A stretch of 64,000 nt of DNA from Acidaminococcus fermentans (GTDB lineage Bacteria > Bacillota > Negativicutes > Acidaminococcales > Acidaminococcaceae), in contig NZ_VULN01000003.1 in NCBI RefSeq assembly GCF_009696675.1, positions 124,001 to 188,000 on the forward strand. The letters are read 5' to 3'. The position numbers were made by a program, and so were the translations under genes. The first letter of the stretch is position 1. Each line of letters opens with the position of its first letter. Below are positions 9,551 through 13,961 of the stretch, piece by piece. Below the pieces are notes generated by a model. It made no database searches, was not told the DNA's origin, and was given only the letters and a program-made list of their open reading frames with translations.

Positions 9551-11074
9551 ATGTACGCACGGACCTGGGGGGAAACCACCCGCGGGATCAACGGAGAAAT
9601 GGTTACAGTGGAGGTGGATGTGACCAACGGCATGCCTGCCTTTGAAATGGTGGGGCTGCCGGATACGGCAGTGAAGGAGGCCCGGGAGCGGGTGAAGGCT
9701 GCGGTGAAGAATTCCGGCTTCCGGTTCCCGGACACCCACATAACCGTGAACCTGGCTCCGGCGGACCTGAAAAAGGATGGGGCCGGACTGGATCTGCCCA
9801 TTGCCCTGGGGGTGCTGGCTGCCAAGAAGTATGTGAAACTGCCGGACCCCATGCCCGTGTTTGCCGGAGAGCTGGCCTTGGATGGATCCCTGCGCCCGGT
9901 GAACGGGATCCTGCCCATGATCCTCCGGGCCCGGGACGAAGGGCTGCCGGCCATTTTCATCCCTTCCGGCAACGCCACCGAAGGGGAACTGGTGGATGGT
10001 ATCCAGGTCTATACAGCGGACAACCTGGGGCAGATCGTGGACCATTTCCAGGAAAAGCAGCCTCTGGAGCCTCTGGCCAAAAAGGTGCTGGAACTGGAGA
10101 AACCCCTGGAGGATACCGTGGACTTTGCAGACGTCCAGGGCCAGAAAGTGGCCAAGCGGGCCCTGGAAATCGCTGCGGCGGGAGGCCACAATGTGCTGAT
10201 GGTGGGGGCTCCCGGAGCCGGGAAGACCATGCTGGCCCGGCGGCTGCCTTCCATCCTGCCGCCCATGACCGAGGAAGAAGCCCTGGAAGTGACCAAGATC
10301 TACAGCATCTCCGGCCTTTTGAAAGGCCACCACGGCATTATGGTGGAACGGCCTTTCCGGAGCCCCCACCACACGGTTTCCCAGTCGGCACTCATCGGAG
10401 GGGGCAGCATCCCCCATCCCGGAGAGGTGACCCTCAGCCATCACGGAGTCCTGTTTCTGGACGAGCTGCCGGAATTTTCCCGGAGCGCCCTGGAAGTGCT
10501 CCGGCAGCCCCTGGAAGACGGGATGGTCACCATCAGCCGGGTCCAGGCCTCTCTCACCTATCCCGCCCGGTTCATCCTGGTGGCGGCCCAGAATCCCTGT
10601 CCCTGCGGGTTCTGGGGAGAAGAGGACAACCTTCACCAGTGCACCTGCCGGCCCGGGGACATCGCCCGGTATCAGAAGAAGATTTCCGGGCCCCTCCTGG
10701 ACCGGATCGACATCCAGATCCACGTGCCCCGGCTCCAGTACCAGGAAATGAAAAGCAGAAAGAAGGGGGAAAGCTCCGCGGCCATCCGGGAACGGGTGGT
10801 GGCAGCCCGTCAGGTCCAGCGGGAACGGCTGAAAGGCACCCACCTGTTCTGCAACGCCAGTATGGGCCGGCGGGAGGTCAAGGCCTTCTGTCCTCTGACA
10901 CCTCAGGCGGAAGCCCTGCTGGAAAAATATTTCGTCAGCCTGGGCCTCAGTGCCCGGAGCCATGACCGGATCATCAAAGTGGCCCGGACCATTGCGGATC
11001 TGGCCGGCAGTGAGGACATCACGGCGTTCCATCTGGGCGAAGCCATCCAGCTGCGGACCAGCATCCAGGGATAG
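9551..11074 (+). CDS. comM: YifB/ComM family AAA+ ATPase (Mg-chelatase-like)
   Basis: ComM-type proteins are hexameric helicases that promote branch migration during natural transformation. The 507-residue product has an N-terminal Lon-S16-like domain (about 1-170), a Walker A GAPGAGKTML near residue 219, a Walker B ending in DELPE and a C-terminal Mg-chelatase domain. Cysteines near 350 (CPCG, CTC) match the family. AAAGGAGC lies upstream of ATG 9551. It directly precedes pilus genes, which fits a competence context, though YifB is widespread without it. Confidence 0.9.
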   Translation: MYARTWGETTRGINGEMVTVEVDVTNGMPAFEMVGLPDTAVKEARERVKAAVKNSGFRFPDTHITVNLAPADLKKDGAGLDLPIALGVLAAKKYVKLPDPMPVFAGELALDGSLRPVNGILPMILRARDEGLPAIFIPSGNATEGELVDGIQVYTADNLGQIVDHFQEKQPLEPLAKKVLELEKPLEDTVDFADVQGQKVAKRALEIAAAGGHNVLMVGAPGAGKTMLARRLPSILPPMTEEEALEVTKIYSISGLLKGHHGIMVERPFRSPHHTVSQSALIGGGSIPHPGEVTLSHHGVLFLDELPEFSRSALEVLRQPLEDGMVTISRVQASLTYPARFILVAAQNPCPCGFWGEEDNLHQCTCRPGDIARYQKKISGPLLDRIDIQIHVPRLQYQEMKSRKKGESSAAIRERVVAARQVQRERLKGTHLFCNASMGRREVKAFCPLTPQAEALLEKYFVSLGLSARSHDRIIKVARTIADLAGSEDITAFHLGEAIQLRTSIQG

Positions 11075-11086
11075 GAGGGCGGAACC

Positions 11087-13405
11087 ATGATTTCCCTTCC
11101 ATGGCTGTCTTTGCTCATTTCCTTTTTCTGGTTCGCCCTGGGCTCCTGTCTGGGCAGCTTCCTGAATCTGTGCGCCAACCGGCTCCGGCGGGAAGAATCC
11201 ATTATCTGGGGCCGGTCCCATTGTGACAGCTGCGGCCATATCCTGGGGCCGGGAGAACTGATCCCTCTGGTCAGTTATCTGCGCCAGAAGGGAAAATGCC
11301 GGCACTGCGGCAAAGAACTGACCGTATCCCTGTTCTGGCGGGAAGCGGAAGCCGGAGCCCTGTTCCTGCTCCTTTCCCGGATGCCCGGGCCTCCGGCGGT
11401 ACTGGCTCTGAGGCTGGCTTGTGTGAGCCTACTGCTCCTTATGGCTTGGACGGACAGGGACGAAATGCAGCTGTACGAAGTTTTTTTCCTTCCCCTGGGA
11501 CTGTTGTTCCTGCTTCTCCACGGACTGACGGACGGAGATTTTTTGTCTCCTCTGACAGGGGCCGGACTGCTGGGGGGACTGCTCCAGCTGATCCACTGGC
11601 GGTATCCCCAGGGCATGGGAGCCGGGGATCCCAAACTGGCAGCGGTGATGGGTCTGTGGCTGGGACCCTGGACAGGGCTCCAGGGCCTTTTCCTGGCTGC
11701 CGGCCTTGCTTTTGTTTCCGTCTGTCTGTTTGCCTTTAATCCGGAAAACAACGGATGGGACAAGGCACCAGTACAGGTGCCCCTGGCTCCCTATTTCGTC
11801 CTGGCCGGACTGCTGCTCCGGTTCCGTTCTGTCTTTGGGCTGATGGAACCGGACAGGATGCTGCTGTGTGTCCTTGGGCTTGCAGGACCGGGGCTGGAAG
11901 AAGGAAAAGCCCGGCTGGGCCAGGCTGCAGGGTGGCTCCGGCGCCGGCTGTCTCCCTGGCCCCGGCAGCTGCTGGGTGTTCAAATCAGCGGAGACCGGGT
12001 GACTCTGGTTCAGGTCCGGAAAAAGAAGAAAGCCTGGGAAGTGGAACGGTACCAGGAACTGGCCTGGCCGGAACGGATCCGGCTGGCCCTGTACCGGCAG
12101 CAGGGGGAGGAACCGGCCCTGTGGCTCCAGGAAGTCTGTGCCAAACGGGGGGTTACAGCCCAATCTATCCTGTGGCTCCTGGGGCCGGATCTGTTGGAAT
12201 TCCGGAATCTGTCCCTGCCCGGTCTGTCCCGGAAGGAACAGATCCAGGCGGCATCCTGGGAGATCCTACAGCAGATCCCCTATCCCCCGGGTTCTTTTGC
12301 CCTGGGGACGGAACCCTGTCCGGACCGGAAGGAAGAAATCCTGGCGGGAGCCGTGCCCCTGGCCCTGCTGGATACCGTAGGGGTCATCAGCCGGCAGCTG
12401 GATTGGGAAATCCTGCAGGTGGAAGGGGCTCCGGCGGCCTGGGGATGGTGGCTGGAAAAAGAGGAGGCGGGATTTCTCCTGATCCTGGGAGAAGAAGGCC
12501 TCCAGGGGGCCTGGTATGCCCGGGGCCGTCTCCTGGCCTGTCGGAACCTGCCGGGATCCGGTCGGGGAGAACCTTTCCGGGACCAGCGGGACGAGGCGGT
12601 GGAAACCCTGTGGGAACATCTGTCTCCCGGGGTCCGGGACCGGTTCCAGGACGGGCCGTCCGGTCTGTATCTGGCCGGCGGTACGGAACAGGAACAGGCT
12701 GCCTGGCTGGAATTCTTCCGGCAGCAGTGGGAATGCCCTGCTCAGGTCCTGGAACTGGAACCCCGCTTCCAATGGGCTCCCTATTATGAAGAGAAAAAGC
12801 AGGCGGTTCTTACAGCTGGCCTGTGGGGTGTTTTGGGAGGGATCCTGGGGGCCGGACGGGAGAGTGGTTTCTGCTTTTCCCTGTTCCGGCAGGGAACGGG
12901 AAGGCTGTCCCGGATCTCCTGGTCGGCCCTGGGAAAGAAACTGGCGGCGGTTTCCCTGATCCTTTGTCTATGGCTGGCCGGATGCCTTTTCCTGGCCCGG
13001 AAGGAACAGGAACGGTGCATCTTACAGCTGCAGCAGGTCTCCGGCTGGGAAACCTTCTGGCAGGCACAGCAGCAGCGGCGGAAACAGCTGGCCCGGCAGC
13101 AGAAAGAAAAAAAGCAGCGGATCCGGCAGCAGGTGAACTGGGGGGATTTCCTGACTCTCCTGGGGAACCAGGTGCCGTCAGACTGCTGGCTTACCCGGGT
13201 GGAACAGCAGAAGGAGGGAAAGGTCCTGCATCTGGAAGGCCGGAGCCTGAAAAGGAATGGGGCTCTCCAGCTGGTAAAACGCCTCCAGCAGCGGCCGGAA
13301 GTGATCCAGGTGAAACTGGACCGGCTGGAACAGGAAGAAAGGGAATCAGATCTGACCGGTTTTGCCCTCCAGATCCGTCTGAAAGAGGAGGAAACTCATG
13401 GATGA
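11087..13405 (+). CDS. Prepilin peptidase / PilM-GspL-like / PilN-like fusion protein
   Basis: One uninterrupted 772-residue frame carries three functions that are usually separate genes. Residues 1-255 are a prepilin peptidase: GSCLGSFLNL membrane start, zinc-type cysteines Cys46/49 and Cys71/74, and catalytic aspartates Asp123 (TDRDEM) and Asp181 (GAGDPK). From about 295 a PilM/GspL-like domain begins (LLGVQISGDRVTLVQVRKKK). A membrane segment at about 619-637, a Gln/Lys-rich coiled coil to about 690 and a PilN-type fold complete the protein. It starts 12 bases after comM and overlaps the pilO-like gene by 8 bases. Domain calls are from motifs; the linkage is seen directly. Confidence 0.85.
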   Translation: MISLPWLSLLISFFWFALGSCLGSFLNLCANRLRREESIIWGRSHCDSCGHILGPGELIPLVSYLRQKGKCRHCGKELTVSLFWREAEAGALFLLLSRMPGPPAVLALRLACVSLLLLMAWTDRDEMQLYEVFFLPLGLLFLLLHGLTDGDFLSPLTGAGLLGGLLQLIHWRYPQGMGAGDPKLAAVMGLWLGPWTGLQGLFLAAGLAFVSVCLFAFNPENNGWDKAPVQVPLAPYFVLAGLLLRFRSVFGLMEPDRMLLCVLGLAGPGLEEGKARLGQAAGWLRRRLSPWPRQLLGVQISGDRVTLVQVRKKKKAWEVERYQELAWPERIRLALYRQQGEEPALWLQEVCAKRGVTAQSILWLLGPDLLEFRNLSLPGLSRKEQIQAASWEILQQIPYPPGSFALGTEPCPDRKEEILAGAVPLALLDTVGVISRQLDWEILQVEGAPAAWGWWLEKEEAGFLLILGEEGLQGAWYARGRLLACRNLPGSGRGEPFRDQRDEAVETLWEHLSPGVRDRFQDGPSGLYLAGGTEQEQAAWLEFFRQQWECPAQVLELEPRFQWAPYYEEKKQAVLTAGLWGVLGGILGAGRESGFCFSLFRQGTGRLSRISWSALGKKLAAVSLILCLWLAGCLFLARKEQERCILQLQQVSGWETFWQAQQQRRKQLARQQKEKKQRIRQQVNWGDFLTLLGNQVPSDCWLTRVEQQKEGKVLHLEGRSLKRNGALQLVKRLQQRPEVIQVKLDRLEQEERESDLTGFALQIRLKEEETHG

Positions 13406-13961
13406 AAAGAAACCGCTGGTTTCCCGGCTCCGGGAGGATCCGTTCCAGGGAGCCCTGCTAGGCCTGGGCGTACTGTGCCTGTGGACCTGGCTGGTGCTCC
13501 CTCTGGGCCGGGAACTGCTGACTGTGAAAAGACAGAATGAGGTCCGGAAGGAGAAACTGGAGCAGCTGGCCCTTTTTGCAGCCCGGTGGGATCCGGAACA
13601 GGAGGCCCGGGAAAAAAGTCTGCTGGAACAGGGAAAACGGGAGAATCCCTCCCTGCCTCCGGAAGCCTGGCTGGGGGCCCTGGAAGCTGCCGCTGCCCGG
13701 AACGGGCTCCAGGTGATCCGACTGGCTCCCCTGACTCCGAAAGGAAAAAAGGATCCGGCTGGCCTGGAAGCGGAACTGGAAGGCTCCTATCCCCGGCTGG
13801 TGACTTTTTTCCGCTGGTGGGAAGCCCGGTATCCCGGGGTGTGGACCCGGGAGGGGCGGCTGGAGGCCCGGGAAAAAGGGGAAAAAGTGCTGTTTCACGG
13901 AAAATTCATAACAGGCCCTGTGAAAAGTTCCAAATCGGGAGAAATACACACTTCTTATTGA
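13398..13961 (+). CDS. PilO-like pilus assembly protein
   Basis: The 187-residue product has a short cytoplasmic N-terminus and one membrane segment at about residues 17-38. A charged coiled-coil stretch follows, then an alpha/beta C-terminal domain (LEAELEGSYPRLVTFFRWWEARYPG…), the PilO/GspM layout. It overlaps the end of the fusion gene by 8 bases, so translation is coupled, and with the PilM/N portions it would form an inner-membrane alignment complex. Sequence-level similarity is weak, so the assignment rests on topology and position. Confidence 0.7.
   Translation: MDEKKPLVSRLREDPFQGALLGLGVLCLWTWLVLPLGRELLTVKRQNEVRKEKLEQLALFAARWDPEQEAREKSLLEQGKRENPSLPPEAWLGALEAAAARNGLQVIRLAPLTPKGKKDPAGLEAELEGSYPRLVTFFRWWEARYPGVWTREGRLEAREKGEKVLFHGKFITGPVKSSKSGEIHTSY

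Follow-up and report, generated by a model that had tools for sequence, protein, structure and literature searches.

An open reading frame of Acidaminococcus fermentans joins a probable prepilin peptidase to a GspL-like PilM-PilN scaffold

We analysed a 64,000-nucleotide stretch of the Acidaminococcus fermentans genome (hereafter, the window; source genome of 2.35 Mb, 99.9% complete, G000 in our comparisons), for which placement in the Acidaminococcaceae was borne out. All features of the window described here lie on the + strand. A PilD-PilM-PilN fusion gene occupies positions 11087..13405, reading from an ATG at 11087 to a TGA at 13403-13405; its 772 codons (772 aa) form the single frame without internal stop that had been claimed, and a good ribosome site lies upstream of the start (TAGGAGGGCGGAACC ATG). 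The conserved upstream neighbour is yifB (comM; 9551..11074; TIGR00368, E 2e-183), which also precedes pilD in the other Acidaminococcus loci and ends 12 bases before the fusion gene. Downstream is a pilO/gspM-like gene of 187 aa (13398..13961) with a weak match to the GspM model NF040576 (E 3e-4, below cut-off); its start at 13398 overlaps the end of the fusion gene at 13405 by 8 bases, and a homologue is located downstream in several relatives. The gap and the overlap are both as given in the original prediction. We also observed that yifB/comM upstream of the fusion in A. massiliensis (G003; L048, 6117-7665) is split over two frames that overlap around its middle, such that it appears to be frameshifted or to contain a sequencing error.

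The N-terminal part of the predicted protein was expected to be a complete prepilin peptidase, and our Pfam searches agree. An A24_N domain, the methylase part (residues 18-96, 11138..11374; PF06750, E 8e-24, 84 bits against a cut-off of 23), contains the zinc cysteines C46, C49, C71 and C74, and a Peptidase_A24 domain (residues 111-208, 11417..11710; PF01478, E 2e-10, 41.3 bits against a cut-off of 26.5) contains the catalytic D123 (11453-11455) and the GxGD aspartate D181 (11627-11629). These six residues are at the predicted positions and are invariant in an alignment of the five fused proteins described below. Eight membrane helices are predicted for the PilD part, two of which merge as residues 180-216 in the AlphaFold model of the window protein; the eighth begins at a PLAPY motif (residues 232-250, 11780..11836; helix 233-250 in the model). 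In both domains, the four cysteines, the two aspartates and the eight predicted helices, this part resembles the PilD/GspO/ComC prepilin peptidases (MEROPS A24A; PF06750 and PF01478). By contrast, those enzymes end after the last helix (20-31 residues past the TM8 motif in sister species), whereas the fusion runs on into a scaffold. As a separate observation, PilD is shortened to 156-193 aa in five genomes from other genera of the family (G034, G023, G033, G024 and G031; L068-L072), with apparent loss of the zinc/methylase domain, and adjoins shortened or fused PilM-PilN genes.

The middle part of the protein (residues 290-590, 11954..12856) had been assigned to a PilM/GspL-like domain. A Pfam search of the fusion protein found no match here and none to PilM_2; the Pfam GspL model PF05134 gave no match at E 1, the PilM model TIGR01175 gave an E value of 0.0017 and 17.4 bits, far under its cut-off of 133, and a PDB sequence search with the fusion protein as single query returned no matches. 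By contrast, a profile from an alignment of relatives matched the PDB PilM entry 2ych (E 1.8e-18) and Pseudomonas aeruginosa PilM (E about 3e-10). The AlphaFold model of the fusion (mean pLDDT 85) has an actin-like domain at residues 294-587, for which Foldseek found P. aeruginosa PilM 5eoy (E 3.6e-15) and, further, the PilM-PilN complex and GspL cytoplasmic domains. Hence, the PilM/GspL-like assignment held. The same order of parts recurs in a second model, made for the fused relative that has diverged furthest. The ATP motif DIG..K is missing from the PilM domain in all nine Acidaminococcus species compared (G000-G008), fused or split, and is retained in most separate PilM proteins of relatives. 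The middle part thus has the fold of PilM of type IVa pili but lacks DIG..K; it is not classifiable as a canonical PilM, and the GspL profile is without match either.

The C-terminal part agrees with the predicted PilN-like anchor, coiled coil and fold. A membrane anchor lies within residues 614-640 (12926..13006), with a hydropathy peak at 619-635, at the start of a single long helix that spans residues 612-681 in the model and is followed by a ferredoxin-like end (helix/coiled coil plus ferredoxin-like domain, residues 641-772, 13007..13402). Pfam PilN (PF05137) matches residues 688-764 with an E value of 1e-7 and 32.3 bits against a cut-off of 22.8. Failure of PilM and PilN profiles had been named as grounds for rejecting the assignment: the stock PilM profiles do fall below cut-off, whereas the profile from the genus and the predicted fold identify PilM, and the PilN profile passes. 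Overall, the three-function architecture is supported by Pfam, the AlphaFold model and Foldseek. Compared with PilN of type IVa pili, the fold is alike, as is the pilM-pilN gene order in relatives; however, the INLLP PilM-docking peptide, retained in separate PilN proteins of relatives, was not seen at the PilM-PilN junction of the fused forms, which have a covalent link instead. Given the loss of DIG..K and the lack of INLLP at the junction, we suggest that the middle part is at most a scaffold without nucleotide binding that would work like GspL. GspL/PulL/EpsL proteins of type II secretion likewise have a PilM-like cytoplasmic domain, one membrane helix and a PilN-like domain in one chain, with the ATP motif gone, and PulL has been described as a PilM-PilN fusion (PMC10191384; on PilD biology and PulL as such a fusion, see also PMC4471445). 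The A. fermentans protein differs from these in having no PF05134 match, in lying between pilD and a pilO-like gene, and in its N-terminal peptidase.

We next consider the distribution of the fusion. Five of the nine Acidaminococcus species carry the triple fusion as an open frame, namely A. fermentans, A. massiliensis (G003), A. provencensis (G008), G005 and G007; in the other four (G001, G002, G004 and G006), pilD is apart from a pilM-pilN fusion. In other genera of the family pilD is a gene of its own, and pilM and pilN are two genes in some genomes (G010, G011, G012, G013, G019 and G025, among others) and a single fused gene in others (G009, G018, G026, G030 and G035). A scan of named genomes with the single fusion sequence found no relatives; a five-row alignment as query recovered them. 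For 380 genomes of the class and a phylum-wide sample of 398, the matches listed included no further uninterrupted PilD-PilM fusion; weaker matches lie beyond those listed, and a fusion would score high. To date, the triple fusion is known only from part of one genus. In both the YifB tree (support 95/94) and the PilD tree (100/99), the fused species group as a single clade, which makes a single origin of the triple fusion the simplest reading of these sequences. Note that separate genes with a stop in relatives had been proposed as a sign of assembly error. Such genes do exist in four sister species, three of which have a single in-frame stop, as would be expected if two genes had been joined in error here; however, the same open architecture occurs in five species of one clade, from separate assemblies. 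The misassembly reading, to which we give a negligible probability, is refuted by these five genomes, and the difference between sister species reflects evolution.

The split species also indicate how the fusion may have arisen. In G001, G002 and G006, pilD and pilMN are in one frame, with a single stop (TGA, TAA and TAA, respectively) and a short intergenic stretch between them. In the fusion, the place of the pilD stop and intergenic stretch of split species is taken by a linker of low model confidence (residues 251-289, 11837..11953). Measured from the TM8 motif of PilD to the PWP motif of PilM, the distance is 58, 60, 60, 60 and 56 codons in the five fused proteins; counted through the in-frame TAA of G006, it is 29+1+30 = 60 codons. 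This similarity looks like the footprint of stop-codon loss, and the simplest account of the sequences would be the loss of one stop codon with length nearly unchanged. We infer that the linker, with its short hydrophobic segment, was put together from the end of pilD, the old stop codon, the sequence between the genes and the N-terminus of PilM. We propose that pilM and pilN would first have fused to give a GspL-like protein, in which the INLLP docking peptide became dispensable, and that within Acidaminococcus the PilM ATP motif would also have been lost; the stop between in-frame pilD and pilMN would then have been lost once, in the ancestor of the five species, with the intergenic stretch becoming the linker. 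The PilM-PilN step is of a known kind. The addition of PilD appears to be undescribed: our searches of open-access papers found no report of PilD fused to PilM, PilN or other domains.

Between G000 and G007, dN/dS is 0.39 for PilD, 0.44 for the linker, 0.33 for PilM and 0.31 for PilN, about tenfold higher than for yifB (0.03), indicating that all domains of the fusion are under purifying selection yet are fast-evolving. The fast evolution of the PilD part would be expected if it were a relic, with pilins processed by another enzyme, and G000 and G007 do additionally carry a short CpaA/TadV-like A24 peptidase. By contrast, the two aspartates and four cysteines are invariant, dN/dS for this part is 0.39, and the genomes of G003, G005 and G008 contain no Peptidase_A24 match besides the fused gene. 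A relic is thus highly improbable, and we rejected it on the basis of the conserved residues, selection and sole-copy status; from the purifying selection and the sole A24 gene in three fused species, the fused PilD part is very probably a working peptidase. The chain might instead be cut post-translationally, or its downstream part made from an internal start, giving separate PilD and PilMN proteins. The linker, with its low confidence in the models, is probably flexible, and internal start codons do occur, including a GTG at codon 305 of this gene with a weak SD-like GGAG. However, comparison of the five fused species revealed no internal start that has both a ribosome site and a conserved position, which led us to reject an internal start for the PilM part, and we consider separate products unlikely.

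As originally predicted, the ATPase, PilC and pilins are absent from the window. They were found elsewhere in the genome: pilB at C23:198784 with a secretin gene at C23:196915, both outside the window, and pilC with four to five pilin-like genes at C1:~40-44 kb, adjoining nrdR. Hence, the pilus genes are at three places in the genome rather than in the compact competence-pilus locus that had been suggested. Beside the secretin gene and pilB (C23:~197-200 kb), a small gene upstream of the secretin has a PilP-like look and no Pfam match. Small genes downstream of pilC (C1; L010, 4125-6700) encode the pilin-like N-termini GFTLIE, GFVLTE, GFFLLD and GSLLAE, and the first, with the canonical N-methylation motif, alone reaches the Pfam N_methyl cut-off. 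PilB (L011, 8662-9942, on C23, about 10.7 kb beyond the window end) has only 426 aa. Its T2SSE match begins at residue 42, and no MshEN-type domain was detected at its N-terminus, despite the presence of a PilM/GspL-like partner; GspE binds GspL through an N-terminal domain of this kind. A second full-score T2SSE ATPase was seen only in G000, where it is TadA-like and on C2, and G007 among the nine species, and a Tad-type system was also observed in the A. fermentans genome (L002, 1315-1953; L005, L006, L008 and L015; contigs C19, C2 and C21), comprising a short CpaA-like peptidase, a TadA-like ATPase, single-domain platform proteins and a secretin. All nine Acidaminococcus species have PilB and ComEC, and no PilT-like ATPase was found. 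With the rest of the machine and ComEC in place and no such ATPase found, the system is likely to be a competence pseudopilus or a non-retracting pilus. In the related Veillonella, mutagenesis pointed to a pseudopilus-type locus as the likely DNA-uptake machinery (PMC5397411); that locus likewise consists of Negativicutes pseudopilus genes including a prepilin peptidase but, unlike the fusion, its peptidase is described as a gene of its own beside a pilin gene (PMC5397411).

At the level of sequence, these data establish one predicted chain with three domains, a clade of apparently single origin, conserved catalytic residues and signatures of purifying selection on each part. The reading that we favour, with a probability of about 0.68, is that a working prepilin peptidase/methylase has been joined, in two steps, to a GspL-like PilM+PilN scaffold, part of either a competence pseudopilus or a type IV pilus that does not retract, in a diderm Firmicute. 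Counting against this reading are the activity of PilD on its own and the topology problem, both taken up below, the lack of a detected N-terminal domain in PilB and the roughly tenfold excess of dN/dS over yifB. In such a protein, pilins would be cleaved, and may be methylated, by the PilD part on the cytoplasmic side; the PilM part would be cytoplasmic and close to PilB, and the PilN part would meet PilO outside. With the parts so placed, each assembly platform would carry its own peptidase.

This arrangement poses a concrete question of membrane topology. With the eight membrane segments and four cytoplasmic loops of prepilin peptidases (PMC10191384), the PilD C-terminus, and hence the PilM part, would come to lie outside, whereas the PilM part is expected on the inside, where it would meet PilB, and the PilN part outside. 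The chain would therefore have to return within residues 250-289, or the eighth segment would cross incompletely; some prepilin peptidase segments may not cross the membrane fully (PMC10191384), and the eighth segment of this protein is charged (R245 and R247). The linker has a short hydrophobic segment around residues 258-266, in which L259, L263 and G264 are invariant in the fused proteins, but by hydropathy the run covers about 8-13 residues, fewer than an ordinary helix needs to cross the membrane, and neither model has a confident ninth membrane helix in the linker. The topology problem is not evidence against the fusion. We tentatively suggest, as a rather doubtful extension of the favoured reading, that pilins are matured where they are assembled and that the linker, made from a former stop and intergenic DNA, supplies the membrane turn back into the cytoplasm; if so, non-coding sequence would have turned into a topology-determining element.

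Coupling of pilin maturation to assembly by the fusion is plausible, and we offer it as a testable proposal and not as a result. PilD is active without any partner in cell-free tests (PMC10191384), indicating that tethering is unnecessary for its activity. This agrees with a neutral fusion, in which a chance stop loss joined neighbours that tolerate a 1:1 link, leaving the parts unchanged and with no gain from tethering. Consistent with such an event, the genes fused once, the in-frame adjacency pre-existed in the sisters G001, G002 and G006, and the linker evolves fastest of the parts. However, the fused state and a near-constant linker length have been kept through extensive divergence (this protein has 30-62% identity to the other fused proteins), and three linker residues are invariant. 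We regard a neutral fusion as a serious contender, albeit with the odds against it.

Under the favoured reading of a working peptidase on a GspL-like scaffold, the fusion would fix the ratio of peptidase to scaffold at 1:1. PilD has been described as an enzyme that acts on its own, and a natural PilD-scaffold chain offers a direct test of whether prepilin maturation can take place at the assembly platform or gains from doing so. Within the family all stages can be seen together, from separate genes through PilM-PilN fused to all three fused, and the family hence provides a series for pilus machines rebuilt by gene fusion. In further genera (G026 and G035, L064/L066; G013, L058; G058, L082), we observed pilD and the next gene in one frame with a single stop codon between them, indicating that an arrangement permitting fusion recurs.
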